Shown: in pieces, positions 1 through 14,900 of the stretch
Position numbering within the stretch: position 1 is the first letter of the stretch
Layout: each line of letters begins with the position of its first letter
Assembly (NCBI RefSeq): GCF_021390175.1
Contig: NZ_CP090004.1
Coordinates: 3,649,001-3,713,000 of the forward strand
Direction: 5' to 3'
Source of the DNA: Flagellimonas sp. HMM57
GTDB lineage: Bacteria > Bacteroidota > Bacteroidia > Flavobacteriales > Flavobacteriaceae
DNA length: 64,000 bases
Made by a program: the position numbers and the translations under genes
Notes under the pieces: generated by a model
What the model saw: the letters and a program-made list of their open reading frames with translations, nothing else
Told to the model about the DNA's origin: nothing
The model's database searches: none

Positions 1-62
1 ATTCAAGAATGGTTCTTCGTGGTTTGATTCGGAGCACTCATGGAAACCCAATTACGATTTGA
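1..62 (+). CDS. 3' end of an upstream gene, product unidentified
   Basis: One reading frame is open from the left edge and stops with TGA at 60-62. The codons visible end in ...RSTHGNPITI. The stop overlaps the ATG of the next gene in the arrangement TGATG, which is typical of translational coupling and suggests the first visible member of the same operon. Too little remains to identify the product. Oxidoreductases often sit at this position in type III PKS clusters, but that is a guess from context. Confidence 0.45.
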   Translation, partial: SRMVLRGLIRSTHGNPITI

Positions 63-775
63 TGGATTTTTCGGTCAGAAGTATACAGCCTGAGATTATG
101 GACGATGCTAATCTGGAGTACGATAAGCTCAGTGAGGCGTACGAGGATATCAATAGGTGCAATAAGATGCTGGGTGGAGATGGAATAACCATAAATGCGG
201 TCTGGAATTTAATAAAACCCAACACAAATAAATCGTATACGATTTTGGATATGGGCTGCGGAGATGGTGAAATACTTAGAAAGCTGTCTACTTTTCTTGA
301 TAAAAGAGGAATTTCGCATAGTTTGGTCGGCATAGATTTAAAAGAAGATTTGCTGCGCATTGCAAAAGAAAAATCCAGTGATTTTCGGAGTCTCCAATTT
401 AAGAAAATGGATATCTTAAAGGCTGACTCTGAGTTTACCTGTGATATTTTGATCAATACATTAACAATGCACCATTTCGATGAAGACCGTATCGATGTCT
501 TTTTACGGCAGTTTGTAAAACTCGCAAGAGTTGGTGTGGTCATTAATGATTTGCAGCGTAGTAAACTGGCCTATTGGCTTTTCCATATTTTTGGACTATT
601 CTTTATTAACACAAAAGTTGCCAAGCATGACGGTCTTGTTTCTATAACCAAAGGATTTAGGAAAAAAGAGCTTGTTGAGTTTTCAAAAAATATACCGAAC
701 GTTTCACATACCATTCAATGGAAATGGGCTTTTAGATATGTTTGGATAATGAACTTTAAACGACAGTATAGTTAA
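62..775 (+). CDS. class I SAM-dependent methyltransferase of the type III PKS cluster
   Basis: A 237-residue cytosolic protein with the SAM-binding motif I (ILDMGCGDGE) near residues 60-70 and an acidic strand-2 motif (VGIDLK) further on. The sequence LINTLTMHHF fits the post-II region of class I methyltransferases. I chose the ATG at 62 because it overlaps the stop of the preceding gene; an in-frame TTG lies one codon earlier. The stop TAA at 773-775 overlaps the ATG of the polyketide synthase (TAATG), so the two are probably translated as a pair. From context it likely O- or C-methylates the polyketide product. The substrate cannot be read from the sequence. Confidence 0.85.
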   Translation: MDFSVRSIQPEIMDDANLEYDKLSEAYEDINRCNKMLGGDGITINAVWNLIKPNTNKSYTILDMGCGDGEILRKLSTFLDKRGISHSLVGIDLKEDLLRIAKEKSSDFRSLQFKKMDILKADSEFTCDILINTLTMHHFDEDRIDVFLRQFVKLARVGVVINDLQRSKLAYWLFHIFGLFFINTKVAKHDGLVSITKGFRKKELVEFSKNIPNVSHTIQWKWAFRYVWIMNFKRQYS

Positions 776-1830
776 TGAATTCAGTTCGTGTTGTGGAGGT
801 ATCTAAACAGGTGCCCAAGTATAGCAGAGATACATCGGATATAATACCTTTTATAAATACATGGCTTTCCGGACAAGATAATCGCTTTTGTAGAAAGGTG
901 GTGAAAATATTTGAGGGAGCGGGTGTTGATCGCCGCTATGGCATTATGGATATTGATGAGGTCTTTATGGCTACCTCTTTTGAAGAAAAAAATGCTATTT
1001 ATGCTAGAGAAGCGAAACTATTAGGAGAGAAAGCTTTGGTTAAAGCATTGGCAAAAGCCAACTGGAAAAGCGAATCGTTGGATTTTATCATTACGGTAAG
1101 CTGTACGGGTATCATGATTCCTTCGTTGGATGCCTATTTGGTCGATACGGTAGGGTTAAAGCAAAATATTGTTCGACTTCCTGTTACCGAAATGGGATGC
1201 GCAGCAGGAGTTTCAGGTCTTATATACGCCACTAATTTTCTGAGGGCAAACCCCGGAAAACGTGCGGCCGTAGTTGCCGTTGAAAGCCCTACGGCCACCT
1301 TTCAGCTAAACGATTTTTCCATGGCAAATATGGTCAGTGCCGCAATATTTGGTGATGGCGCGGCATGTGTTTTACTGTCTTCGGAAGCTGACGCTCAAGG
1401 ACCGAAAGTGGTTGGAGAAGAAATGTATCATTTTAAAGATGCTACACATTTAATGGGCTTCGACCTAACCAATACTGGGTTGAAAATGATTTTAGACCCT
1501 GCTGTTCCCCAAGTGATAGCAGAACATTTCCCAGATATTGTGCATCCGTTTTTACAGAAATTCAATTCGAGCATTGAGAAAGTGAACCATTTAATTTTTC
1601 ACCCCGGCGGAAAGAAAATTGTTCAAACTGTGGAGGAATTATTCGGTAAATTGGGCAAAAACATAGATGATACTAGAGAAGTTTTAAGGGCGTACGGTAA
1701 TATGAGCAGCGTTACCGTGCTCTATGTCCTAAAGCGATTTTTAGAAAAGGATATAAAAACTGGAGAACAGGGAATGGTTCTAAGTTTTGGTCCCGGGTTT
1801 TCAGCACAGCGTGTTTTATTGGAATGGTAA
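775..1830 (+). CDS. type III polyketide synthase (chalcone/stilbene synthase family)
   Basis: The 351-residue product has the whole type III PKS catalytic triad: Cys142 in TEMGCAAGVSG, His276 in FHPGGKKIV and Asn309 in YGNMSSVTV. The C-terminal GPGFSAQRVLLEW matches the family signature (GFGPG-like loop). Such enzymes condense an acyl starter with malonyl-CoA and cyclise the chain to alkylpyrones or alkylresorcinols. It lies inside an operon with its own ketosynthase, dehydratase, enoyl reductase and ACP. The starter is therefore probably an acyl-ACP made in cis rather than a generic CoA ester, which is an inference. The length is normal for the bacterial family. Confidence 0.93.
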   Translation: MNSVRVVEVSKQVPKYSRDTSDIIPFINTWLSGQDNRFCRKVVKIFEGAGVDRRYGIMDIDEVFMATSFEEKNAIYAREAKLLGEKALVKALAKANWKSESLDFIITVSCTGIMIPSLDAYLVDTVGLKQNIVRLPVTEMGCAAGVSGLIYATNFLRANPGKRAAVVAVESPTATFQLNDFSMANMVSAAIFGDGAACVLLSSEADAQGPKVVGEEMYHFKDATHLMGFDLTNTGLKMILDPAVPQVIAEHFPDIVHPFLQKFNSSIEKVNHLIFHPGGKKIVQTVEELFGKLGKNIDDTREVLRAYGNMSSVTVLYVLKRFLEKDIKTGEQGMVLSFGPGFSAQRVLLEW

Positions 1831-1849
1831 TTAGATTGGATTAGTAATA

Positions 1850-2632
1850 ATGGGTGATACAGCGAAATGGGCATTGATATTGGGAGGTAGTAGTGGACTT
1901 GGTTTGGCGGCTGTAAAAAAATTAGCTGAGGAACAATTTAATATAATAGTTGTTCATAGGGATAGAAAATCTGATTTAGAAAAAATTAATGATACTTTTC
2001 GAGAAATTACTTTAAGTGAAAAAACGCTGTATAATTTTAATATCGATGCTATAAATCCGGAAAAAAGAGAGGGACTAATAAAAGAAATTGCAATACTCAT
2101 TGGGGCCCAAAAGATTCATGTGCTGGTTCATAGTATCGCAAAAGGCAACTTAAAGCCTATGTTGGATGAAGAAGGAAATGCATTGGGCAATCAGGATTTT
2201 CATTTGACTATTGATGCAATGGCGATAAGTCTTTATGATTGGGTGAAAGGATTGGATGAAAAAAATCTCTTTGCAACGGACGCACGTGTGATTGCTTATA
2301 CCAGTGAAGGCAGCTCTAAAGCTTGGCGAAGCTATGCGGCGGTATCCGCGGCTAAAGCTGTTTTAGAATCCATTGTCCGTAGTATAGCATTGGAATTTGC
2401 ACCAAAAGGCATTAAAGCAAATTGTATTCAAGCCGGTGTTACCTATACAAAATCCCTTCAGATGATTCCCAATAGTGATTTGCTTATGCAGAAGTCCATA
2501 CGAAGAAACCCAAATCAACGCCTAACGACTCCAGAAGATGTAGCAGATGCAACGTACCTTCTAACATTGAAAGAGGCTAAATGGATAACAGGAACTGTTT
2601 TAAAAGTAGATGGAGGGGAAAGTTTGCAATAA
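1850..2632 (+). CDS. SDR-type enoyl-[acyl-carrier-protein] reductase (FabL/FabI-like)
   Basis: A 260-residue short-chain dehydrogenase. The cofactor loop LGGSSGLGLA is at residues 11-20. The active site is Tyr162-x6-Lys169 (YAAVSAAK), the spacing of FabI/FabL enoyl reductases rather than the Y-x3-K of ordinary SDR ketoreductases. Tyr150 and the VHSIAKG stretch (near residue 93) also fit the enoyl reductase subfamily. The GxxxGxG loop is closer to FabL than to FabI. It probably reduces enoyl-ACP made by the neighbouring dehydratase. No ketoreductase is seen in the visible cluster, so that step may be borrowed from housekeeping fatty acid synthesis. Confidence 0.82.
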   Translation: MGDTAKWALILGGSSGLGLAAVKKLAEEQFNIIVVHRDRKSDLEKINDTFREITLSEKTLYNFNIDAINPEKREGLIKEIAILIGAQKIHVLVHSIAKGNLKPMLDEEGNALGNQDFHLTIDAMAISLYDWVKGLDEKNLFATDARVIAYTSEGSSKAWRSYAAVSAAKAVLESIVRSIALEFAPKGIKANCIQAGVTYTKSLQMIPNSDLLMQKSIRRNPNQRLTTPEDVADATYLLTLKEAKWITGTVLKVDGGESLQ

Positions 2633-2635
2633 AGG

Positions 2636-3094
2636 ATGACAACAAAAGAAATAATAGCACTATTGCCCTACAAAGCTCCTTTCCTCTTTGTTGATAGTAT
2701 CAATGACATTGATGAAAATGGGGTTGAGGGTACGTTCACTTTTGATAAGAACTCTTCTTTTTACGAAGGCCACTTTAAAGACTTCCCTGTTACGCCAGGG
2801 GTTATTCTAACTGAGTGCTGTGCACAAATAGGTGTCGTGTGCCTTGGTATATACCTGCTTAAAAATGAGAATATAACCGGAGCTGAAAAAGATTTAAAAA
2901 TAGCTTTAAGCAGTTCGGAAATGGAATTTTATCTACCTGTATTCCCAGATGAAATGATAAGGGTTGTTTCAGAAAAGGTGTATTTCCGGTTCAATAAGCT
3001 AAAATGTAAAGTAAAGCTCTTTAACTCAGAAGGCAAACTGATGTGCAAGGGTGTTTTGGCAGGGATGTTTAAACAAGGGAAGAATGGAAAATAG
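2636..3094 (+). CDS. FabZ/FabA-like 3-hydroxyacyl-ACP dehydratase
   Basis: A 152-residue hotdog-fold protein. It has the catalytic His46 (EGHF) and Glu60 (LTECCAQ), 14 residues apart as in E. coli FabZ (His54/Glu68), with the GHFP..PG..LTE pattern between them. It starts 3 bp after the enoyl reductase stop and its end overlaps the start of the ketosynthase by 11 bp. The role is dehydration of 3-hydroxyacyl-ACP during assembly of the cluster's acyl chain. Sequence drift from housekeeping FabZ and the operon position argue for a dedicated copy. Confidence 0.88.
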   Translation: MTTKEIIALLPYKAPFLFVDSINDIDENGVEGTFTFDKNSSFYEGHFKDFPVTPGVILTECCAQIGVVCLGIYLLKNENITGAEKDLKIALSSSEMEFYLPVFPDEMIRVVSEKVYFRFNKLKCKVKLFNSEGKLMCKGVLAGMFKQGKNGK

Positions 3095-4361
3095 AGTTGT
3101 AGTAACCGGTATGGGCGTATGTGCGCCTAACGGAATCGGTCTTCCTGAATTCACAAAAGCGTTAAAAAATGGAATTAGTGGAATACGTTTTTACAAAGAA
3201 TTAGAGCAATTAAACTTTGGGTGTCAAATTGCTGGTAAACCGAATATTGAAGATGTTGAATTAAATAAATACTTTACTGATTTGCAATTGAAAAGGCTTA
3301 ATGCAAGTGGTGTAATTTACGGTGTTATAGCAGGTAAGGATGCTTGGCAAGATGCAGGTTTGCCCATAGTTTTTGAAACTGGCCCCGATTGGGATAGTGG
3401 AATCATATTCGGAACCGGAATTCTGGGTGTAGATAAGTTTCGGGAGGCAATTTATCAAGTTGATGAAGGCGATGTGCGACGATTGGGGAGTACCTCGGTA
3501 ATTCAGACCATGGCTAGTGGAATCAGCGCTTATTTGGGCGGTATGTTGGGGTGTGGAAATCAAGTTACGACAAACTCTTCTGCTTGTACCACGGGTACCG
3601 AAGCTATATTAATGGGGTATGAACGTATAAAATCCAAAAAAGCTGTTCGTGTATTGGTAGGCAGTTGTAGCGATAGTGGGCCTTATGTTTGGGGCGGATT
3701 TGATGCTATGCGCATACTCCCCAGAAAATTCAACACTGACCCAGAGCGAGCGAGTAGGCCGATGAGTGCCTCTGCCTCTGGGTTTGTCCCTGGTAGTGGG
3801 GCTGGGGCTCTTGTCTTAGAATCCTTGGAAAGTGCCCTAGAACGTAATGCCACCATCTATGCGGAAATTTTAGGCGGGAACGTAAATAGCGGTGGCCAAC
3901 GCGGAGGCGGTACCATGACCGCCCCAAATAACGAGGCCGTTGTTCGTTGTATCAAATCAGCCATAAATGATTCAGGGGTTACTTCTAAAGAAATAGATGC
4001 GATTAATGGTCATTTGACTGCTACGACAAAGGATACAGTAGAAATACAAAATTGGAGTAATGCCCTTGGACTTTCAAACATCAACTTTCCATATATCAAT
4101 TCTTTCAAGGGCTTGTTTGGGCATTGTTTAGCAGCAGCTGGTAGTATCGAGTGTATCGCAACGTTATTGCAATTTCGAGAAAAACAGTTATTTGGGACCA
4201 TTAATTGTGAAGATGTACATCCAGAAATAAGTAAAGTGGTGGATGATTCAAAAATTCCAAAAGCTACAATCAATTTTGAGCCTAAAATCATAGCCAAAGC
4301 AAGTTTTGGTTTTGGGGATGTAAATGCCTGTATTATTTTTAAGGCGTTTAATCAAGATTAA
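3084..4361 (+). CDS. beta-ketoacyl-ACP synthase (FabF/KAS II-like)
   Basis: The ATG at 3084 gives 425 residues beginning MENRVVVTGMGV, the usual KAS I/II start. A purine-rich AAGGGA lies just upstream. The catalytic residues are Cys168 (SSACTTGTEA), His310 (NGHLTATTKD) and His347 (FGHCLAAAGS), with Lys342 also conserved. The second motif departs from the usual NAHGTST pattern (Gly replaced by Leu after the His), suggesting a specialised secondary-metabolism enzyme rather than housekeeping FabF. It overlaps the dehydratase by 11 bp. It probably elongates the acyl-ACP supplied to the type III PKS. Confidence 0.9.
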   Translation: MENRVVVTGMGVCAPNGIGLPEFTKALKNGISGIRFYKELEQLNFGCQIAGKPNIEDVELNKYFTDLQLKRLNASGVIYGVIAGKDAWQDAGLPIVFETGPDWDSGIIFGTGILGVDKFREAIYQVDEGDVRRLGSTSVIQTMASGISAYLGGMLGCGNQVTTNSSACTTGTEAILMGYERIKSKKAVRVLVGSCSDSGPYVWGGFDAMRILPRKFNTDPERASRPMSASASGFVPGSGAGALVLESLESALERNATIYAEILGGNVNSGGQRGGGTMTAPNNEAVVRCIKSAINDSGVTSKEIDAINGHLTATTKDTVEIQNWSNALGLSNINFPYINSFKGLFGHCLAAAGSIECIATLLQFREKQLFGTINCEDVHPEISKVVDDSKIPKATINFEPKIIAKASFGFGDVNACIIFKAFNQD

Positions 4362-4376
4362 ATCCAAATATCTAAG

Positions 4377-4631
4377 ATGCAAGACGAACAACGATATCAA
4401 AAATTAAAAGCAATCATACAGACCTATTTGCCGGATGATGTTTCCGTAAACGACATCACGTTGGAAAGTAATTTCACGCAAGAACTAAACATCAATTCCG
4501 CTAATTTGGTAGATATTGTTTTGGATGTTGAAGATGCTTTTGACATTATGCTGGAGAATGAAGATATGGACGGCATGCAGACTGTTAAGGACGCGTTACT
4601 GATTATAGATGGCAAACTAGCTGAAAAATGA
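4377..4631 (+). CDS. acyl carrier protein with an atypical Ser motif
   Basis: An 84-residue acidic helical protein. The phosphopantetheine attachment site is probably Ser41 in NINSANLVDIV. The usual DSL is replaced by NSA, but the hydrophobic spacing after the Ser (LVDIVLDVEDAF) is that of ACP helix II. The length and acidity are normal for a discrete ACP. It lies 15 bp after the ketosynthase, and its stop overlaps the next gene (ATGA). It presumably carries the growing acyl chain for this cluster. Confidence 0.82.
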   Translation: MQDEQRYQKLKAIIQTYLPDDVSVNDITLESNFTQELNINSANLVDIVLDVEDAFDIMLENEDMDGMQTVKDALLIIDGKLAEK

Positions 4632-5053
4632 AAGATTTTTTGAACTATGCATCGAGCAAGTTTAGGATAGATAAACGATTAGCACTAACATACTGCTTGG
4701 TTTATTTTATTTGGGGAATGTGCATGAACTGGTTTGGCGCTCAAATGGAAATAGCTAAGTTTACGTTTTGGTGGCAAGTGATCACTTGTTATATCATCTA
4801 TATGATACCCATTTCATTGCTCTTGCGAGGATTACCATTTCATACGCAATATGCTTATGGACTGATAGCAATGGGACTTCTTGAGTTTGGAGGGTACGCC
4901 TTGGAGACTTCCTATGCCTATCCAAACAATATTTTAGATAAACTTTTTAACATCCGTAATTTTAGCTTAGGAATGGCCCTTTTTTTTGCATTGTATTTCC
5001 CACTGGGAAATTGGGGCGTTTCTAAAATTTATAATGCTTTATTTGAGAGGTAA
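4628..5053 (+). CDS. small multi-pass membrane protein of the PKS cluster
   Basis: A 141-residue hydrophobic protein with about four predicted membrane segments (near residues 20-37, 46-66, 75-95 and 112-135) and many aromatic residues. Its ATG overlaps the ACP stop by 4 bp, so it belongs to the operon. I do not recognise a family. From position it could help export, anchor or modify a lipophilic product. It is the last gene before a convergent YceI gene only 11 bp away. Confidence 0.75.
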   Translation: MKDFLNYASSKFRIDKRLALTYCLVYFIWGMCMNWFGAQMEIAKFTFWWQVITCYIIYMIPISLLLRGLPFHTQYAYGLIAMGLLEFGGYALETSYAYPNNILDKLFNIRNFSLGMALFFALYFPLGNWGVSKIYNALFER

Positions 5054-5064
5054 ATCAGTATATG

Positions 5065-5577
5065 CTAATCAATATCAAAAACCATTTTGACCTTTACTAG
5101 ATTATCAGCTCTATTTTTCTTGATTTTGATGCCATAATCAATAGAATAAAGACTTGTGGTGCCAATAAGTTGATTTCCACTTTGGTTAAAAGTTATGGTT
5201 ATGGACTTGGTAATATCCTTAATAGTAAGATTGCCAATGACGATTAGCTTTTCACCTTCAGATTTCACTTGTTTACTTTCAAATCGTATTCTTGGATAGT
5301 CATCAACATCAAAATACTTACCACTTTTTAGAGACCAATTTCGTAGGCCATTATTGGTATCTAAAGTTTCCGAAGCAACGGAACCTCTAAGAACGGAATT
5401 TTCGAGGTTGTCAAAGTCTATTACTGATTCCGATTTAAAACCAGCAATAGTTCCTTTAGTTTCTTTGGAAACGAATTCAAATGAAATTTCCGCATCAACG
5501 ATTTTGTTTGTTTGACCAAATAGGGAGGATATGGATAAGCTAACGGCAAAAAATAGCGAAAACAAGAGCGACTTCAT
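5065..5577 (-). CDS. YceI-family periplasmic lipid-binding-like protein
   Basis: The 170-residue product starts with a clear signal peptide (MKSLLFSLFFAVSLSISSLFGQ). It then has the YceI lipocalin-like pattern: an N-terminal strand with EISFEFVSKETKGTIAGF, ESKQVKSEGE in the middle and LTIKDITKSITITF. YceI proteins bind isoprenoid or other lipophilic molecules in a beta-barrel. It converges on the PKS cluster. A more distant YceI relative lies at 59615-60193. No specific ligand can be inferred. Confidence 0.85.
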   Translation of the reverse strand: MKSLLFSLFFAVSLSISSLFGQTNKIVDAEISFEFVSKETKGTIAGFKSESVIDFDNLENSVLRGSVASETLDTNNGLRNWSLKSGKYFDVDDYPRIRFESKQVKSEGEKLIVIGNLTIKDITKSITITFNQSGNQLIGTTSLYSIDYGIKIKKNRADNLVKVKMVFDID

Positions 5578-5893
5578 ACTATATTTTGCTTTTAAAATTA
5601 CAGATTTGATTTTAATAAGAATTCTTTTTAAAAGATTTATGGAGAAAAGATTTTTTTGTTTAACCTTTTATCTTTCCTACAAAAAATCCTACGATATTTG
5701 TCATTGATTTGCTATAATTAATGGTTTAATAATTTTAAAATCATAAATATTTGTTTATCAGTTTTTTATAATTCTTAAATATTACAAGTATAAATGTTAA
5801 ATATTTAAAATGAAGTTAATTTTTTAGAGTTGTGTAGGATAATTATTAACTTTAAGTAAAGTTGAGAGATTATGAAAGTATAAACAAAATGCC
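5578..5893. other. AT-rich divergent intergenic region
   Basis: 316 bp without a credible gene. It separates the leftward YceI gene from the rightward coiled-coil gene and must hold both promoters. An inverted repeat AACTTT-aagt-AAAGTT lies at 5848-5863, 30 bp before the rightward ATG. I could not place -33/-7 elements with confidence. Confidence 0.5.
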
Positions 5894-6223
5894 ATGAATG
5901 ATATTAATGAAACAAAAACTGTACATATTCAAGAGCTACTCATTAAAATTGAGCGAAATAATAATATCATTCAAAGACTTTCCAAAAAACTAAACTCATA
6001 TACTTGTGAACCACATAATTCTTATTGTTTTGAAAAAATGTATGACCTAAAACATAACTTCAAGGTTTTTTCAGGGCAACAAAATCAAATTATGAGGTTG
6101 TTGAATCAAAAAAAAGGAATGGCAGAAAACTTAAATAAAGAATTGCAGTTGCACCTAGAACGCTTTAAACAATTGGAAAGTGATATGGCCGCCTACCTTT
6201 TGGACATGGACCAATATTCCTAA
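5894..6223 (+). CDS. small coiled-coil protein, function unknown
   Basis: A 109-residue soluble protein with heptad-like spacing over most of its length, for example around IQELLIKIERNNNIIQRL and in the C-terminal half. There is a short central break with two Cys (CEPHNSYCFEKM, near residues 38-45). It has no signal peptide or membrane segment. It stands alone, with 316 bp upstream and about 100 bp before the transporter gene. I do not recognise the family; it could be a small scaffold or stress protein, but nothing in the context decides this. Confidence 0.65.
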   Translation: MNDINETKTVHIQELLIKIERNNNIIQRLSKKLNSYTCEPHNSYCFEKMYDLKHNFKVFSGQQNQIMRLLNQKKGMAENLNKELQLHLERFKQLESDMAAYLLDMDQYS

Positions 6224-6329
6224 ATCTTTCAATAGGCTTTCAGAAAGTAGAAATGAAGGTCATTTTCATTAAATTTTATACGCTACCAAACATTCGTATT
6301 ATTGCAATGTAATAATCAACTTTGTTTTA

Positions 6330-7247
6330 ATGGGAAAGTCTTCAAACGGAGCATTGGTTATCTTGGCCTTTTTTGCTATTTATGTTATTTGGGGCTCTAC
6401 ATATTTGCTGAATAAAATAGCAGTATTGGAGCTACCTGCGTTTATGTTGGCTTCGTTTAGATTTATAACTGCAGGCCTTTTAATATTTGTTCTTGCCAAA
6501 ATTTTGGGTATCAAAATTACGATTACAAAAAAACAGTTATTGAACTCGACTATTGCAGGCTTTTTGTTTTTAAGCTTCGGTAATGGAGTGGTGGTATGGG
6601 CATTACGGTATGTTGATACCGGCTTTGCAGCTCTGGAAATATCAGCACAACCGCTTATTATTTTGCTGTTGATGCGAATTCTTCAAGGTAAGAAAATACA
6701 GCCCATGTCTGTGATAGGTGTCATTTTTGGAATTATCGGTATTTACCTATTGGTGAGCCAAAAGCAGATAATTAGTAAAGAGGGTTCTATTTTAGGTATG
6801 GTAATGATATTTTTCTGCATGCTAAGTTGGGGGTATGGTAGCCTTTTTGTGGCCAAGGCAGATTTACCTACCAATTATTTTGTTAATACGGGGTATCAAA
6901 TGTTCACAGGGGGAATAATTCTGGCATTGATGAGCTTAGGTTTTGGCGAAAGTTGGAGTTCTCCACTGGTCTGGAGCGTAAAAGTACAGGTTGTTATGCT
7001 GTTGCTTGTGGTTTTTGGAAGTATTTTGGCATTTACTTCGTTCAATTATTTATTAAAATCGGTATCTCCTGAGAAAGTCGCTACTTCTACTTATGTAAAC
7101 CCTATAGTTGCCCTAATTCTAGGATGGTATTTTTTGAACGAACAAATTACCGTCCAATCCATTTTTGCAGCAATAGTTTTACTTACAGGTGTTTACTTTA
7201 TCAACACAAAAAAGACCTTGGCTATTTTTGAGCGATTTAAGCGATAG
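6330..7247 (+). CDS. EamA/DMT-family transporter
   Basis: The 305-residue membrane protein has about ten hydrophobic helices in two five-helix halves. The motif IYVIWGSTYLLNKIAV at the start of helix 1 is typical of the drug/metabolite transporter (EamA) family, and the second half contains a matching GSILAFTSFNYLL block. Members export or import small metabolites across the inner membrane. The substrate is unknown. It ends with a short basic tail (FERFKR). No operon partner is apparent. Confidence 0.88.
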   Translation: MGKSSNGALVILAFFAIYVIWGSTYLLNKIAVLELPAFMLASFRFITAGLLIFVLAKILGIKITITKKQLLNSTIAGFLFLSFGNGVVVWALRYVDTGFAALEISAQPLIILLLMRILQGKKIQPMSVIGVIFGIIGIYLLVSQKQIISKEGSILGMVMIFFCMLSWGYGSLFVAKADLPTNYFVNTGYQMFTGGIILALMSLGFGESWSSPLVWSVKVQVVMLLLVVFGSILAFTSFNYLLKSVSPEKVATSTYVNPIVALILGWYFLNEQITVQSIFAAIVLLTGVYFINTKKTLAIFERFKR

Positions 7248-7451
7248 TTTTGGAATACTGCCATCTTAACATTTTAATAATCTTATCATTTTTAGTCCCA
7301 ATTAATGATAGAGAAATGTTAATAATGAACGTTTCAGGATATTTTATTGCATGAATATCCTGAAAAACAAATATTTCGACCCAACCATTTGCTATCTTTA
7401 GACTCTTATTAACATATACTAACTTATAATATATTATCAGGAGTAACATTT

Positions 7452-7910
7452 ATGGCTAAATCACAACAGACTTATAACAAATCAGAGAGAGAAAAAAAGC
7501 GTTTAAAGAAAAGGGAAGAGAAGCAAAAAAAGAAGGATGCCAGAAAGGCCGAAGCCAAAGAAAGTGGTAAATCCGGAATTCAATTTGCTTATGTAGATCA
7601 CAACGGAAATCTAACGGATACACCACCAGACCCTACACAAAAAGTTGCTATTGAGGCGGAGAACATCACTCTTGGTATTCCTAAAAAGGAAGACATTGAA
7701 GAGGAGGAGTTTGACCCAATACGAAATGGTAAAGTTTCTTTTTATGATAGTTCAAAAGGGTTTGGCTTTATTATTGATTCTGAGACTCAAGAAAAATATT
7801 TTTGTCACGTCAGTGGTTTGATTGACGAAATTGCTGAGAACGATAAAGTATCTTTTGAACTCGAAAAAGGTATGAAGGGCATGAATGCAGTTCGTGTAAA
7901 GAAGATTTAA
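7452..7910 (+). CDS. cold-shock-domain protein with basic N-terminal extension
   Basis: The 152-residue product has a Lys/Arg-rich helical N-terminus (residues 1-40, KKRLKKREEKQKKK) followed by a C-terminal cold-shock domain from about residue 92. The RNP1-like KGFGFII and RNP2-like KYFCHVSGL motifs bind single-stranded nucleic acid. The arrangement is common in Bacteroidota and differs from the 67-residue CspA type. Roles in RNA chaperoning or translation are likely. The 204 bp upstream contain no gene; a long leader would suit cold-shock regulation, but I see no defined structure. Confidence 0.88.
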   Translation: MAKSQQTYNKSEREKKRLKKREEKQKKKDARKAEAKESGKSGIQFAYVDHNGNLTDTPPDPTQKVAIEAENITLGIPKKEDIEEEEFDPIRNGKVSFYDSSKGFGFIIDSETQEKYFCHVSGLIDEIAENDKVSFELEKGMKGMNAVRVKKI

Positions 7911-7982
7911 TTTTAAGAACTCCAAAACTGTCACTTCTCTTTTATTAGCTTTTTTTAAGTCTAATTTTAATTTTTATTGCTC

Positions 7983-8534
7983 ATGAACATTTTTTTTAAA
8001 TACAGATTCTTTTTATTGTCGTTCATGTTGGTTGGATGTGCTTCCCAGCAAAAAAATACTGTTGAAGAAATAGAGAAGCTGGATAAACTAATTGCGAAAA
8101 AATCATTTGAAATCAGGCCCCGCTGGGCTAGACCTCTGGTAAGTAATAGTCTTAACAGCATTGCTAACGCTGGCTTACTTCCTCTGGGCAGCACTGCAAA
8201 TCAAATTGATTTGATGGGTACTTCGAGTCATTTTAGAATTCTGGGTGACAGTGTAATGGCAAAACTACCTTATTTTGGTGAAAGACAAATGGGAGCAGCT
8301 TACAATAGCACTAATGGTGGTATTCAGTTTAGTGGAATACCTAAGAATTTAAAAATAAAGAAGCAAGATAGCGGCAAGGGTTATAAAATTGACTTTCAAA
8401 TCAATAATAATACGGAAACGTATAATGTAAGTGTAAATTTACATCCTAATTTACAAAGCCGCATCAATGTCAATAGCTCTCACAGGAATATGATATCGTA
8501 TAGTGGTCAAGCTTATGCATACTCTACCAAATAA
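7983..8534 (+). CDS. DUF4251 domain lipoprotein
   Basis: The ATG at 7983 gives 183 residues with a lipoprotein signal (FFLLSFMLVGCASQQ; Cys16 probable lipid site). The body matches the DUF4251 pattern, including DLMGTSSHFRILGDSV and AKLPYFGERQMGAAYN, followed by beta-rich sequence to the end. The family is common in Bacteroidota and has no known function. It stands alone between two intergenic regions. Confidence 0.78.
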   Translation: MNIFFKYRFFLLSFMLVGCASQQKNTVEEIEKLDKLIAKKSFEIRPRWARPLVSNSLNSIANAGLLPLGSTANQIDLMGTSSHFRILGDSVMAKLPYFGERQMGAAYNSTNGGIQFSGIPKNLKIKKQDSGKGYKIDFQINNNTETYNVSVNLHPNLQSRINVNSSHRNMISYSGQAYAYSTK

Positions 8535-8610
8535 TCTTGTTTAAAACCTACTTTACTTTCTTCTAGTTTATATACTCAGTTTGGATTGAATTAATAATAT
8601 TTTAAAAAAG

Positions 8611-8627
8611 TGATTTTTTGACAAGTG
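8611..8627 (+). repeat. 17-bp motif shared with 23770-23786, copy 1
   Basis: The 17 bp TGATTTTTTGACAAGTG occur identically here and at 23770-23786. Both copies lie in the non-coding region ahead of a rightward secreted-protein gene (8792 and 23834). They could be a shared operator or an upstream promoter element (a TTTG-type -33 box is present). The basis is eye comparison only. Confidence 0.45.
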
Positions 8628-8791
8628 CATACATATATTTTTTATTAAATAGGACTTTCAAATCTTAATACTATGTAAAATTTTATATATAAATATTCCT
8701 GTTAGTGGTCATAAGGAATATTAATGGGTTTTAAAGTGTTAATAAATTGTTTATGTTAAAAAGGTTTAAATTCTTACACTATTTTTAGGGC

Positions 8792-9532
8792 ATGACTAAT
8801 TCAGCGTTCTTTGTTTTTACTTTTGGTTTTTTGGGCTTTTTCACCAATACTATCACAGCTCAGTTGGATACTAAAAATGAAAATTTATATAAAACTTTCG
8901 ATAGCATAGTTGGTGAAGAGGTTTCAGGTCTTTACAACGGTGTTCAATATAACAATGAGTTCATTGTTTTAGAGGAAAAGCACCAATTCTTTGGTGCAAA
9001 TGAATTTATAAAAGGATACGTCCAGTATGATGGACAGAATTATTATGACATCTCCCTTAAATACGATTTACTAAATGACCATGTTATTGTAAGCCCGAAA
9101 AATGCTTCAGGAAGTCTTACATTCAGACTTATTAATAGTAAGGTCAATCGTTTTGTTATTAATGACAGGCTTTTTGTCAATACAACAAAAAATAATTTAG
9201 ATAGCACAGAAAATATTGGTTTTTGTGAGGTGTTGCTTAGTAAAGATATTTTTAGCCTTTATAAAAAGTACATCAAAAAAGGAAGTGAGAAATCAAAAAA
9301 TAGCAAGGTCTTTTTTGAATTCAATCTTAAGGAGTCATATTATCTAAACTATGGGGATAACTTCCTGCCTGTAAATACCCGAAGTGAACTGATTTTAATA
9401 TTTCCTGATAGAAAAAATGTAATCAAAGATTATTTTAAAAGTTATAGAAATCTTCTAAAATCCGACCATGATACTTTCCTTGAATTACTCTTAAAGCGTT
9501 TATACGAAATTAATGAATCAAACACTATATAG
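8792..9532 (+). CDS. secreted hypothetical protein, first gene of the TonB receptor operon
   Basis: The 246-residue product has a signal peptide ending TNTITAQ. The rest is soluble and beta/alpha mixed, rich in Asn, Lys and Tyr. The C-terminal half resembles a short helical domain (KNVIKDYFKSYRNLL). I do not recognise the family. It ends 10 bp before the receptor's start and is probably co-transcribed. Similar-sized secreted proteins often precede TonB receptors in this phylum, so a periplasmic accessory role is a reasonable guess. Confidence 0.75.
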   Translation: MTNSAFFVFTFGFLGFFTNTITAQLDTKNENLYKTFDSIVGEEVSGLYNGVQYNNEFIVLEEKHQFFGANEFIKGYVQYDGQNYYDISLKYDLLNDHVIVSPKNASGSLTFRLINSKVNRFVINDRLFVNTTKNNLDSTENIGFCEVLLSKDIFSLYKKYIKKGSEKSKNSKVFFEFNLKESYYLNYGDNFLPVNTRSELILIFPDRKNVIKDYFKSYRNLLKSDHDTFLELLLKRLYEINESNTI

Positions 9533-9542
9533 AGTACACTAC

Positions 9543-12317
9543 ATGAGATTAACAATACTATTATTTTTTTGCCTGATCAGTAATTTATGCATTGCTCAGG
9601 TGAATGGAAAAGAAATTTCTATATCCTTTAATGAAGTAACAATTCCTCAAGCTCTATCCATAATTGAAGAAAGAACGAATTATCGTTTTTATTATTTGGA
9701 AGAGTGGTTTGACGATGCTTTGATATCAGGCAACTATGAATCCAGGACCATTGAAACCATAATTGAAGATGTTTTAAAGAAGGTTGAAGTGAACTTTTTT
9801 ATGTTTCAGAAGGATATGGTGGTTTTGACAAAAAACACGATAATCTACGATTCTCTTCCAGAAGTTTTTGACAATAGTGTAGCCCATGACTCGACCGACA
9901 CTGACAATATAGTGTCTACTATAACTGATACCCCCATTTTTTCCACAAAAGCCGATTCTGATATACCGTCACGAATAGAAACCTTTAGGATAGGGAAAAG
10001 AAGTAAGGTCCAACGCTCTGACAAAGCTACTTTAAAGGGAATAATTTCTAATATTACTTCCAAAGAACCTATACCTGATTTACAACTCATTGTTAGGGAG
10101 CAAAACCTGACGGCTTTGACTAATGCAAATGGCTATTATGAAATAGAGTTGCCTATAGGCACCCACATGCTAGAAATGATAGCATTAGGTATTGAGAACA
10201 CAAAAAAGCGTATTGTTATTTACAATGATGGTAATCTAGACTTTAAATTGAATGAAAGTATAGAACTATTGGATGAAGTTGTAGTCAAGGCTGACGCAAA
10301 CAAAAATGTTGCTAATACTACAAGTGGCTCTGAGAGTATTGACGCAGAGGAATCCAAAAACATTCCGTTGGTTTTAGGGGAAAGAGACGTCTTAAGAGTA
10401 GCTACCTCACTCCCTGGAATCACTACTGCTGGTGAAGGTTCGTCCGGTTTCAATGTGAGAGGTGGTAAATCCGACCAGAATTTGATTCTATTGGATGATG
10501 CAGTAGTTTATAATCCGCAGCACTTCTTTGGCATATTTTCTGGACTAAACCCTTTTGCCATAAGTAGTCTTGATGTCTACAAAGGAAGTTTCCCAGCCGA
10601 ATATGGTGGTAGATTATCTTCTGTTTTTGATATAAAGACAAAAAATGCGGATACTCAAAAAATTAAAGCGGAAGGATCGATTGGTCCAGTAACAAGTAAC
10701 GCTTTGATTGAACTTCCAGTGCTAAAAGAAAAATCTTCTCTTCTGTTAGGCGGTAGGGGTGCGTATGCCAATTGGATTTTAAGATCTCTTGATGAACCTT
10801 CTTTAGAAAACAGTGAAGCATCGTTCTATGACTTTTTAGGTAGTTACAGCCACAAAATCAACAGCAACAATAATATTAAGGCTACAGGTTACTACAGTAG
10901 GGATGATTTTAGCATTACTTCGGATTCACTTTTCGTTTATAAAAATAGATTGGTATCCGTTAAATGGGACCATGCTTTTAATGATAAAACAACTGGGAGT
11001 TTGGTGGCATCTAACAGTCAATATGACTTTAACATTGAGTTTGATGGAAATTCAAATAATGATTTCATCTTTGGTTATCGAGTCAATGAGAGTGAGGTTA
11101 AGCTAAAAGTGAACCATACAAATAAATCCAAACTAACATATGCTTACGGTCTTGCAAGTAAATTATATAATATAGATCCTGGGAACTTAGACCCAATAGG
11201 AAGTGGTAATTCAATTACTGAACCAAGAACCATTCCAAGAGAAAGAGGATTGGAATCTGCAGCTTTCTTATCGGCAAACATTGACTTGACAAAAAAACTT
11301 TCTCTAGAGGCTGGAATAAGAGTATCTCATTTTGCATCACTGGGTGAGAGTACTCAAGTGATTTTTGAGGAAGGTCAGCCAAAAAATCAAGCCACAGCCA
11401 TAGACACATTAAGTTTCGCCAAAAATGAGATTGTTGAAAACTATTTTAATCCCGAACCACGTATTTCCGCAAGATATTTAATTAATCCAAGCTTATCTCT
11501 TAAGGCTGGCTATGGTCGAACCTATCAATATATACATAGGCTTTCGAATAATACGACGGTTTCACCTATAGATACGTGGAAAATTTCAGATTTAAATATT
11601 AGACCACAAAGTGCAGATCAATTTACCTTGGGGATCTTCAAAAATTTCGACGATAACAAATATGAACTGAGTTTAGAAGGGTTTTATAAGCAATCAGATA
11701 ATATATTGGATTTTAAGACAGGAGCTCAAGTGCTATTAAATGAAAATATAGTTTTAGAAACTTTACAGGGTGAAGGAAAATCTTACGGAGTAGAATTCTT
11801 GGTTCGAAAAAATACGGGAAAACTAAATGGTTGGCTTGGATACACCTATTCACGTTCACTTATTAGATTTGATAGTCAGTTTCCAGAAAATCAAATAAAC
11901 AATGGTGATTTTTTTCCGTCAAATTTTGATAAGCCACATGATTTGAGTTTAGTGGCCAATTATAAATTTTCAAAACGTTTTAGTTTCTCTACCAACTTTA
12001 CCTATCAAACCGGGAGACCGGTCACGGTTCCTGTAGGAAGCTTCACTTTTGACAATTCGGAGTTCGTTGTTTTTAGTGACAGAAACAGTTTCCGTATTCC
12101 TGATTTTTACAGGTTGGATATTGGGTTAAATATTGAGGGGAACCATAAAGTAAAAAAACTGGCCCATAGCTTTTTTACAATATCTGTCTATAATGTTTTG
12201 GGGAGGAACAATCCTTTTTCAGTATTCTTCTTGACCGAGGATGGCGAGGTAAGAGGTCAAAAAACTTCTATATTTACAATTCCAGTTCCTGCTATAACCT
12301 ATAACTTTAAGTTTTAG
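9543..12317 (+). CDS. TonB-dependent outer-membrane receptor with STN and carboxypeptidase-like domains
   Basis: The ATG at 9543 gives 924 residues with a signal peptide ending LCIAQ; an in-frame ATG 30 bp upstream would spoil the signal. The order is an STN domain (about 20-100, ISFNEVTIPQALSIIEERT), a linker, a carboxypeptidase-D-like regulatory domain (about 165-240, LKGIISNITSKEPIPDL), a plug (SSGFNVRGGKSDQNLILLDD) and a 22-strand barrel ending in Phe (ITYNFKF). The presence of an STN domain suggests signalling or large-substrate receptors. It is followed by two DUF4249 lipoproteins, a standard pairing in Bacteroidota, and an MG2-like protein. The substrate is unknown; no SusD-like or glycoside hydrolase gene is adjacent. 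Confidence 0.92.
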   Translation: MRLTILLFFCLISNLCIAQVNGKEISISFNEVTIPQALSIIEERTNYRFYYLEEWFDDALISGNYESRTIETIIEDVLKKVEVNFFMFQKDMVVLTKNTIIYDSLPEVFDNSVAHDSTDTDNIVSTITDTPIFSTKADSDIPSRIETFRIGKRSKVQRSDKATLKGIISNITSKEPIPDLQLIVREQNLTALTNANGYYEIELPIGTHMLEMIALGIENTKKRIVIYNDGNLDFKLNESIELLDEVVVKADANKNVANTTSGSESIDAEESKNIPLVLGERDVLRVATSLPGITTAGEGSSGFNVRGGKSDQNLILLDDAVVYNPQHFFGIFSGLNPFAISSLDVYKGSFPAEYGGRLSSVFDIKTKNADTQKIKAEGSIGPVTSNALIELPVLKEKSSLLLGGRGAYANWILRSLDEPSLENSEASFYDFLGSYSHKINSNNNIKATGYYSRDDFSITSDSLFVYKNRLVSVKWDHAFNDKTTGSLVASNSQYDFNIEFDGNSNNDFIFGYRVNESEVKLKVNHTNKSKLTYAYGLASKLYNIDPGNLDPIGSGNSITEPRTIPRERGLESAAFLSANIDLTKKLSLEAGIRVSHFASLGESTQVIFEEGQPKNQATAIDTLSFAKNEIVENYFNPEPRISARYLINPSLSLKAGYGRTYQYIHRLSNNTTVSPIDTWKISDLNIRPQSADQFTLGIFKNFDDNKYELSLEGFYKQSDNILDFKTGAQVLLNENIVLETLQGEGKSYGVEFLVRKNTGKLNGWLGYTYSRSLIRFDSQFPENQINNGDFFPSNFDKPHDLSLVANYKFSKRFSFSTNFTYQTGRPVTVPVGSFTFDNSEFVVFSDRNSFRIPDFYRLDIGLNIEGNHKVKKLAHSFFTISVYNVLGRNNPFSVFFLTEDGEVRGQKTSIFTIPVPAITYNFKF

Positions 12318-12322
12318 TTTAA

Positions 12323-13492
12323 ATGGAAATACGTTATAGTTTGATCAAATCTATTTTTGCTATAGCTTCTATTTTCCTTGTTCTTGGATGCACGGAGCCC
12401 TTCAATACATCTTTGGAAGATTTCGAGGACATACTGGTCATAGATGCCTTCATAACCAGTGAGATAAAGCAACAAGAGATTTTTGTTTCAAGAACCTTTA
12501 TCACGGGCAATGCCGTGCAACAGGAAAACGATGCACTCGTTACGGTTGTCGATGATACGGGGAACAGCTATGTTTTTAGTGAAACAGAACCGGGCACCTA
12601 TGTATCGGACCAAATGTTCGGTGCGCAACCTAACGTTTCTTACTCTTTGAAGCTGACAACCTCAGGAGGCAGTGTTTTCAGTTCTGGCCCGATTTCAATT
12701 TCGGCCGATGCCGAACTGGAAAGCATTACAGCTGAAAGGACCGTTTTGGAAAATGGACAGGAGGGCATCGCGATTATGGCCAATGGTTTTGATGTGGAAA
12801 ATGAATCTGTTTTTTACAGGTATGATTACGAAGAAACCTACAGGATAGATGTTCCGTTTTCTACAGGTGGAAAATTTGTGATAGTCTCGGAAAACCCTCC
12901 AGAACTGGATGTTGTTCCCAAAACAAGAGAAGAAAGTGTATGTTATGGGACTAATTTATCGAATTCGATTTTGATAACTACATCGGAAAACCTTTCTGAA
13001 AGTAGGATTGAGAATTTTCAGGTAAGATTCATACCCAAGACAGACTTTGTTCTACGGAGTAGATACAGCATCCTTGTAAACCAATATGTGCAATCGAACG
13101 CAGCGCAAACGTTTTATGAGGACCTACAGGAATTCTCGAACATAACCACATTGTTCGCACAGACGCAACCGGGTTTTGTGAGGGGCAACATTGTTTCCGA
13201 GAATAATGCAAGTGAGAGGGTATTGGGTCTTTTTGAGGTCTCTTCCATGACTTCTAAAAGGATTTTTATAAACCTAGAGGACTTTTTCCCTGATGACAAC
13301 CAGCCCGAATATATCATTGATTGTGCTTCAGAACAGTTCCCTCAAAATGACAGTTTTCTTTTTGAACTGGTCAAGAATGGTGCACGTCAATACGCAGGAG
13401 AGGACTTTGGTGTATATTTTGTTGTACCAACCGGTTGTTCGGATTGCAATGTTTATGGAACAAATGTCAAACCTGATTTTTGGATAGATTAA
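12323..13492 (+). CDS. DUF4249 lipoprotein, copy 1
   Basis: The 389-residue product has a lipoprotein signal (SIFLVLGCTEPFN, Cys23). DUF4249 proteins are surface-exposed or periplasmic beta-rich partners of TonB receptors. It starts 6 bp after the receptor. Residues from about 6 to 330 are nearly identical to the second copy, except for an 11-residue patch around residue 180-190 and a different C-terminal segment, which contains a GCSDC pair in this copy. Both end NVKPDFWID. The signal sequence and operon position support an intact gene. Confidence 0.88.
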   Translation: MEIRYSLIKSIFAIASIFLVLGCTEPFNTSLEDFEDILVIDAFITSEIKQQEIFVSRTFITGNAVQQENDALVTVVDDTGNSYVFSETEPGTYVSDQMFGAQPNVSYSLKLTTSGGSVFSSGPISISADAELESITAERTVLENGQEGIAIMANGFDVENESVFYRYDYEETYRIDVPFSTGGKFVIVSENPPELDVVPKTREESVCYGTNLSNSILITTSENLSESRIENFQVRFIPKTDFVLRSRYSILVNQYVQSNAAQTFYEDLQEFSNITTLFAQTQPGFVRGNIVSENNASERVLGLFEVSSMTSKRIFINLEDFFPDDNQPEYIIDCASEQFPQNDSFLFELVKNGARQYAGEDFGVYFVVPTGCSDCNVYGTNVKPDFWID

Positions 13493-14695
13493 TCTAATTG
13501 ATTATGAAAATGTTATTTAATTGCTGGATTAATTTGATTAAGGGTAAGAATATATTTTTAATGAAATTATTGGAGAGGATTTCTACTAGAAACAATTTTT
13601 ATCAATTTTCTTGTAGGCTGAAACAAGAATGGGAAACAGAACGCACGGGTGCTGTATGTGTCATACCATTTTTTGCACTTTCAAGCTATTATAACTTTTG
13701 TTTTGTATGGTGAAGAATTTAAGTTTGATCAAATCTATTTTTGCTATAGCTTCTATTTTCCTTGTTCTTGGATGCACGGAGCCTTTCAATACATCTTTGG
13801 AAGATTTCGAGGACATACTGGTCATAGATGCCTTCATAACCAGTGAGATAAAGCAACAAGAGATTTTCGTTTCAAGAACCTTTATCACGGGCAATGCCGT
13901 GCAACAGGAAAACGATGCACTCGTTACGGTTGTCGATGATACGGGGAACAGCTATGTTTTTAGTGAAACAGAACCGGGCACCTATGTATCGGACCAAATG
14001 TTCGGTGCGCAACCTAACGTTTCTTACTCTTTGAAGCTGACAACCTCAGGAGGCAGTGTTTTCAGTTCTGGCCCGATTTCAATTTCGGCCGATGCCGAAC
14101 TGGAAAGCATTACAGCTGAAAGGACCGTTTTGGAAAATGGACAGGAGGGCATCGCGATTATGGCCAATGGTTTTGATGTGGAAAATGAATCTGTTTTTTA
14201 CAGGTATGATTACGAAGAAACCTACAGGATAGATGTTCCGTTTCCTTCTGATATGGAACTTGTAGTGGTTTCAGAGAACCCTCCAGAACTGGATGTTGTT
14301 CCCAAAACAAGAGAAGAAAGTGTATGTTATGGGACTAATTTATCGAATTCGATTTTGATAACTACATCGGAAAACCTTTCTGAAAGTAGGATTGAGAATT
14401 TTCAGGTAAGATTCATACCCAAGACAGACTTTGTTCTACGGAGTAGATACAGCATCCTTGTAAACCAATATGTGCAATCGAACGCAGCGCAAACGTTTTA
14501 TGAGGACCTACAGGAATTCTCGAACATAACCACATTGTTCGCACAGACGCAACCGGGTTTTGTGAGGGGCAACATTGTTTCCGAGAATAATGCAAGTGAG
14601 AGGGTATTGGGTCTTTTTGAGGTCTCTTCCATGACTTCTAAAAGGATTTTTATAAACCTAGAGGACTTTTTCCCTGATGACAACCAGCCCGAATA
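12338..14695 (+). repeat. near-identical tandem duplication of about 975 bp (offset 1384 bp)
   Basis: Bases 12338-13311 repeat at 13722-14695. I find two mismatches before a 33-bp divergent patch (12860-12892 versus 14244-14276), and none in the following 419 bp. Divergence resumes at 13312/14696. The patch preserves length and frame. Such a mosaic fits recent duplication or gene conversion, with short tracts copied from another paralogue. Confidence 0.9.
13493..13706. other. spacer between the two DUF4249 copies
   Basis: 214 bp separate the copies. A 71-codon open frame is present (13498-13713) but has no signal, no recognisable motif and AT-driven composition, so I do not call it. This segment has no counterpart ahead of copy 1 and may be a remnant of the ancestral arrangement. 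Confidence 0.5.
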
Positions 14696-14900
14696 CATTA
14701 TTGATTGTACTCCCGAAGAATTTCCTGACAATGATTTGGCCCTTTTTGAACTGATCAAGAATGGTACGTATCAATATGTATCAACTGAGATTAGGGGATT
14801 TCTGCCACCTTTTCCTGTATCCTATATTGTTGTACCAATTGGTTGCGTGGATTGTACTTTTTATGGAACAAATGTCAAACCTGATTTTTGGATTGACTAA
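13707..14900 (+). CDS. DUF4249 lipoprotein, copy 2
   Basis: The ATG at 13707 gives 397 residues (MVKNLSLIKS...), with the same lipobox as copy 1 (LGCTEPFN). The central 300-plus residues are almost identical to copy 1. It differs in the short patch (PSDMELVVV versus STGGKFVIV) and in the last 70 residues, where it has an insertion near LPPFPVS and ends GCVDC...NVKPDFWID. The variable parts are probably surfaces that contact ligand or receptor; that is inference from the pattern of variation. It probably belongs to the same operon. Confidence 0.88.
   Translation: MVKNLSLIKSIFAIASIFLVLGCTEPFNTSLEDFEDILVIDAFITSEIKQQEIFVSRTFITGNAVQQENDALVTVVDDTGNSYVFSETEPGTYVSDQMFGAQPNVSYSLKLTTSGGSVFSSGPISISADAELESITAERTVLENGQEGIAIMANGFDVENESVFYRYDYEETYRIDVPFPSDMELVVVSENPPELDVVPKTREESVCYGTNLSNSILITTSENLSESRIENFQVRFIPKTDFVLRSRYSILVNQYVQSNAAQTFYEDLQEFSNITTLFAQTQPGFVRGNIVSENNASERVLGLFEVSSMTSKRIFINLEDFFPDDNQPEYIIDCTPEEFPDNDLALFELIKNGTYQYVSTEIRGFLPPFPVSYIVVPIGCVDCTFYGTNVKPDFWID

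Follow-up and report, generated by a model that had tools for sequence, protein, structure and literature searches.

A conserved operon in Flavobacteriaceae couples a type III polyketide synthase gene with discrete fatty-acid-synthase-like genes and a tailoring pair

Results

Gene content of the operon

The window, a stretch of 64,000 nucleotides from Flagellimonas sp. HMM57 (G000:C1:3649001-3713000), comes from a genome of 4.16 Mb in a single contig and opens inside an operon of about 6.1 kb, whose genes all lie on the forward strand in the order OX–MT–T3PKS–ER–DH–KS–ACP–MP. Its first gene, OX, lies almost entirely to the left of position 1, so the operon begins before the window does. Its features, in window positions, are:

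1..62, + strand: 3' end of OX, an FAD-dependent monooxygenase/halogenase-fold protein of 375 aa; whole gene about -1065..62 (L003:10935-12062), GTG start preferred
62..775, + strand: MT, class I SAM-dependent methyltransferase, 237 aa; complete gene with ATG at 62; Methyltransf_25 above cut-off
775..1830, + strand: type III polyketide synthase (T3PKS), 351 aa; PF00195 71.5 bits and PF02797 69.9 bits, cut-off 27
1198-1200, 1600-1602 and 1699-1701, + strand: T3PKS triad C142, H276 and N309, from alignment
1850..2632, + strand: ER, FabL/FabI-like enoyl reductase, an SDR with Tyr-x6-Lys; PF13561 138 bits; FabL 141 bits, under its cut-off of 328
2636..3094, + strand: DH, FabZ-like 3-hydroxyacyl-ACP dehydratase; PF07977; FabZ 60 bits, under its cut-off of 113
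3084..4361, + strand: KS, FabF-like ketosynthase with signature GHLTAT; PF00109/PF02801
3585-3587, 4011-4013 and 4122-4124, + strand: KS active site C168, H310 and H347, from alignment
4377..4631, + strand: ACP, 84 aa, signature INSANLVD, phosphopantetheine serine S41 at 4497-4499; PF00550
4628..5053, + strand: MP, small hydrophobic helical protein of 141 aa, presumed by eye to be a membrane protein; no family match

Neighbouring genes of the operon overlap by up to 11 bp or are separated by up to 19 bp. OX and MT meet in TGATG, the MT stop and T3PKS start share TAATG at 775, T3PKS and ER are separated by 19 bp and ER and DH by 3 bp, DH and KS overlap by 11 bp, KS and ACP lie 15 bp apart, and ACP and MP overlap by 4 bp in ATGA. 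The preliminary description had given the junctions from TAATG onwards in the same form, and the six genes that it had called complete are real; the operon itself proved larger, as MT is a complete gene and OX begins left of the window. It had also suggested that a ketoreductase might lie to the left, which did not hold: leftward extension gave OX, a protein of the FAD monooxygenase type, and no ketoreductase was seen beside the operon when the ORFs of L003:2000-12900 and of window positions 1-14000 were inspected by eye. A terminator-like hairpin (L003:10879-10908), a consensus match rather than proof, lies between OX and the preceding gene, and a YceI-like gene follows MP on the opposite strand. 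Further along the window, a TonB-receptor-like gene (9513-12317) precedes two neighbouring, near-identical lipoprotein-like genes (12323-13492 and 13698-14900) that share long identical stretches and have different ends; judged by eye, this pair arose recently, by tandem duplication or by gene conversion.

Pfam families were matched above cut-off by MT, T3PKS, the enoyl-reductase-like SDR, the FabA-like DH, the FabF-like KS and the ACP (PP-binding), and OX was found to have the PHBH/halogenase fold. The best NCBIfam match of MT was PRK06202 (124 bits, under its cut-off of 243). The SDR contains Tyr-x6-Lys, and its best match among solved structures is FabL (3oic); we therefore read it as an enoyl reductase and not as a ketoreductase. 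MP had no Pfam or NCBIfam match, and its AF2 model (pLDDT 82.5) found no Foldseek match at E<=0.001. The catalytic residues are intact, as first described: T3PKS C142/H276/N309 were invariant in 9 chosen sequences aligned, KS C168/H310/H347 in 12, and ACP Ser41 with I-N-S in 14. The unusual HLTAT of the KS and NSA of the ACP are likewise real; the KS motif had been taken for drift and both proteins for specialised ones, and the aligned relatives mark both motifs instead as conserved family signatures. The KS of the operon and that of Flagellimonas sp. 389 share 90% identity.

Elsewhere in the genome, FabG (C1:3800456) and FabD (C1:874238) were found above cut-off, and there is a separate FabF-type KS at C1:1951622 and a separate ACP at C1:1951297. 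At about C1:4007000-4016000 of the same genome (L210), there is an ORF of 2203 aa, in which a scan of part of the sequence found AMP-binding, PP-binding and KS domains as well as one more carrier and a FabD-like match, and an ORF of 1329 aa with a carrier domain lies nearby; going by these domains, it is a type I PKS/NRPS-like locus unrelated to the T3PKS operon.

Conservation within the Flavobacteriaceae

In a family sample of 149 Flavobacteriaceae genomes, one per genus, a T3PKS orthologue (at least 64% identity) was present in 48; one further T3PKS (G072, 33% identity) had none of the other operon genes near it. The operon KS clade, delimited at E<=1e-60, was found in 47 of the 149 genomes, every one among the 48 that are T3PKS-positive, and in 46 of the 125 genomes that are at least 90% complete. 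Thus KS was present in 47/48 genomes with the T3PKS orthologue vs 0/101 without it (Fisher p 3e-38, kinship ignored). The two genes were linked in 45 of the 48 loci and one more locus ends at a contig end. MT and an FAD oxidoreductase adjoined T3PKS in all 48 loci, which had been picked by T3PKS.

The order OX-MT-T3PKS-(ER)-DH-KS-ACP was kept in 44 of the 48 loci: 39 had all of these genes, 11 of them with MP next, and five lacked ER with the order otherwise unchanged, including L047, which was counted as ER-less and retains a short ER fragment. Another locus, L067, kept the operon order and had no DH match, one was cut by a contig end, and two had only OX-MT-T3PKS-ER (G144 and G138). G144 has a split operon, with DH-KS-ACP kept on a different contig. 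G138 has no DH, KS or ACP nearby, and the KS clade is absent from its genome. By eye, VgrG-type spike-like and PAAR-like genes were noted downstream of the shortened operon of G138 (L075, 1-5500); perhaps they are an insertion that pushed out DH-KS-ACP.

A second set comprised 80 named loci, the best 80 of at least 493 relatives; 6 of the 80 duplicate the family sample. The order was found in 74 of these 80 best loci (65 complete, 9 without ER), and the remaining 6 run into a contig end. MT and an FAD oxidoreductase adjoined T3PKS in all 80, again picked by T3PKS. ER-less named loci include those of Arenibacter, Maribacter antarcticus and a Eudoraea MAG, and no ER orthologue was found elsewhere in the genome in the six ER-less genomes checked. 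Carrier genera include Flagellimonas, Zobellia, Maribacter, Salegentibacter, Gramella/Christiangramia, Gillisia and Salinimicrobium. With its seven or eight genes the operon is therefore common: of the Flavobacteriaceae genera sampled, about one in three has it, and its order is nearly invariant.

MP was found in 21 of the 149 genomes, all 21 of them T3PKS-positive, with 13 linked and 8 unlinked copies. As it is confined to T3PKS-positive genomes, MP is probably part of the trait that the operon encodes, although kinship among the genomes may also explain this distribution.

The tailoring pair and type III PKS loci outside the family

Across the phylum, T3PKS was matched at E<=1e-30 in 126 of 296 genomes. 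Close orthologues accounted for 25 of these, 22 within the Flavobacteriaceae and 3 outside (G391, G281 and G226); all three of the latter have the operon, two of them without ER. From the other 101 genomes, 16 distant loci were examined and none of them gave a match to ER, DH, KS or ACP at E<=1e-2; overall, the FAS set was absent in 17/17 distant T3PKS loci examined. Three of the 16 (L125, L128 and L129) are T3PKS-MT-OX trios, and in two of these, from other Bacteroidota families, a UbiA prenyltransferase adjoins T3PKS (L128:8551-9447 and L129:6906-7769), which suggests prenylated ring lipids. In L126 an MT is accompanied by a different FAD protein. Nine loci (L114-L116 and L118-L123) have, by eye, a short ICMT-like gene after T3PKS, confirmed by Pfam (PF04140) for L119 only, and three have neither trio genes nor an ICMT-like gene.

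OX is 33-42% identical to the OX of the three Bacteroidota trios (vs at most 27% for three FAD paralogues of its own genome), and MT is 28-31% identical to the trio MT. By sequence, OX and MT are thus homologues of the T3PKS–MT–OX trio pair found elsewhere in Bacteroidota, a comparison made against the L125, L128 and L129 proteins. A T3PKS tree fell into three clades: the operon clade, the ICMT-pair group and the trio group including L126. In this tree of 25 rows, which took in Bacteroidota trios only and from which FabH and two long rows were dropped, long branches remain, and the operon and trio enzymes formed separate clades (support 100/99 and 100/99). Tailoring genes of the trio kind beside a T3PKS of a different clade, together with the FAS set, indicate a mosaic pathway.

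Discussion

Flexirubin, dialkylresorcinol and aryl polyene clusters of Bacteroidota contain ketosynthase and ACP genes and specify phenolic lipids, and to our knowledge their layouts lack a type III PKS. The operon differs from them in having a single KS and no equivalent of FlxB by sequence score (75.8 bits for the SDR, far under the cut-off of 340), and its T3PKS is tied to a private FAS-like set; the original view that this is not a flexirubin or aryl polyene layout was therefore borne out. The Bps-type pairs of T3PKS and ICMT known from Bacillus, which the nine distant Bacteroidota loci with an ICMT-like gene resemble, also place a methyltransferase next to the synthase, but their partner is an ICMT, whereas MT is a class I SAM-dependent enzyme and MP matches no Pfam family. 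In the Bacteroidota loci with such pairs, the T3PKS belongs to another clade.

With OX beside MT, the core of the operon resembles the known T3PKS–MT–OX trios for alkylresorcinols and quinones: srs of Streptomyces griseus, pkq of mycobacteria, hid (hierridin) of cyanobacteria and the planctomycete operons. All of these have a T3PKS beside a methyltransferase and an oxidoreductase but, as far as the cited descriptions go, lack a private FAS set (PMC10896814, PMC9927152, PMC8086630). Planctomycete genes of this type expressed in Corynebacterium are reported to give alkylresorcinols, partly methylated (PMC10896814), those of Streptomyces and mycobacteria polyketide quinones (PMC9927152), and those of cyanobacteria hierridins (PMC8086630). 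Dedicated FAS genes within a T3PKS cluster are known from ars (ArsA-D) of Azotobacter vinelandii, where the ACP of ArsA is described as passing the chain directly to the type III PKSs ArsB and ArsC (PMC6274091; for Azotobacter also PMC3098273). ArsA, however, carries its ACP as a domain of a type I synthase, whereas the flavobacterial set consists of discrete type II proteins, lacks a ketoreductase and adds MT and OX. Germicidin synthase GCS and SCO7671 of Streptomyces coelicolor, described as taking hexanoyl-ACP, share with the operon, as we infer it, a T3PKS that accepts acyl-ACP, but the account cited describes no private ACP/KS/DH/ER operon for them (PMC6274091).

Type III PKS clusters have been predicted in these bacteria before. 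They are given as the second commonest cluster type in one Flavobacteriaceae survey, with 9% of clusters (PMC7440613), as present in every one of the eight Leeuwenhoekiella species, with no MIBiG match for the one in L. parthenopeia (PMC9859067), and as present in all Aquimarina genomes of one study (PMC9323603), in each case as antiSMASH predictions for which the cited passages give no product; one is also listed for Fulvivirga kasyanovii (PMC12565237). This comparison is by cluster type and does not imply identity with the OX–MT–T3PKS operon. In the open-access literature searched (subscription papers lay mostly outside the search), we recognised no description of the operon and no characterised pathway with the same gene order, in keeping with the preliminary description. 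What appears to be new, going by the genes, is the joining of trio-type tailoring to Ars-like feeding in type II form, a combination uncharacterised as far as searched.

The gene content and order, the intact sites, the near-perfect co-occurrence and the trio homology of OX and MT are directly supported. On these grounds we propose that the operon probably makes one tailored polyketide lipid. KS, DH and usually ER would extend an acyl chain carried by the private ACP, with ketoreduction borrowed from the cell's FabG and malonyl loading from its FabD. The acyl-ACP would then be passed directly to T3PKS, a hand-over made likely by analogy with Ars and germicidin synthase, and T3PKS would add malonyl units and close an aromatic or pyrone ring bearing the chain. 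MT would methylate the ring and OX would then oxidize it, most likely by hydroxylation, to give a methylated phenolic or quinone-type lipid, presumably located in the membrane. MP may be an accessory protein in part of the genomes only. The product may be an alkylresorcinol or alkylpyrone, as first suggested. Against the private acyl-ACP line stand the loci without ER (5/48 in the family sample and 9 of the 80 named loci) and L067 without a DH match. The co-occurrence of KS and T3PKS would also arise from co-inheritance in one operon.

One variant, which overlaps with this proposal, is that the ring is an alpha-pyrone and not a resorcinol or quinone, with OX and MT decorating the pyrone. Three residues before the catalytic His, the T3PKS has Leu in 127 of 131 rows (6 of them duplicates of the family sample), Phe in 3, Met in 1 and Trp in none, so that the Trp281 of ArsB that marks resorcinol formers, a position mapped by inference via W274 of PKS11, is absent; changing Trp281 is reported to have turned ArsB into a pyrone former (PMC6274091). 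The best solved relative of the T3PKS is moreover PKS11 (169 bits), an alpha-pyrone synthase going by its PDB name. PKS11 itself, however, carries Trp at this position (W274), and the OX and MT here belong with those of the trios, which elsewhere are described as making resorcinols and quinones (PMC10896814, PMC9927152). The ring may thus be of either type, and we regard the pyrone as a possibility to be held tentatively.

Another explanation is that T3PKS uses acyl-CoA, while KS, DH, ER and ACP build a second chain that is joined later, as in flexirubin-type esters. The use of acyl-ACP is presented as an exception among type III PKSs (PMC6274091), and G138, with T3PKS but neither the KS clade nor DH, KS or ACP nearby, indicates that T3PKS may work without the private line. 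Against this explanation, the operon in the window has no acyltransferase or ligase, inspection by eye of the gap genes in ten loci revealed none either, and ER, DH, KS and ACP lie directly behind T3PKS in most loci. We consider this explanation unlikely. That the FAS genes are a spare copy for general membrane lipids, sharing the operon by accident, is highly improbable: each protein does resemble housekeeping FAS enzymes, but KS (E<=1e-60) is found in none of the 101 genomes without the orthologous T3PKS, the private KS and ACP motifs are conserved, and the split operon of G144 keeps both halves.

If the proposal of one lipid built on a private acyl-ACP is true, type III PKSs acquire a partner in the form of a type II FAS that is open to dissection one protein at a time. 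How a T3PKS takes its chain from an ACP could then be studied more cleanly than with Ars, and G144 with its split operon and G138 without KS provide natural tests. We know of no earlier case of a type III PKS that has a type II fatty acid synthase of discrete proteins to itself. Polyketide quinones are reported as alternative electron carriers in actinobacteria (PMC9927152), and as a speculation, on balance rather doubtful, such a synthase with its own type II set could supply Flavobacteriaceae with a lipoquinone or redox phenolic lipid serving as an alternative membrane electron carrier beside menaquinone. Were the proposal true, what is known of the chemistry of this family would lack one lipid that is conserved in a third of its sampled genera.
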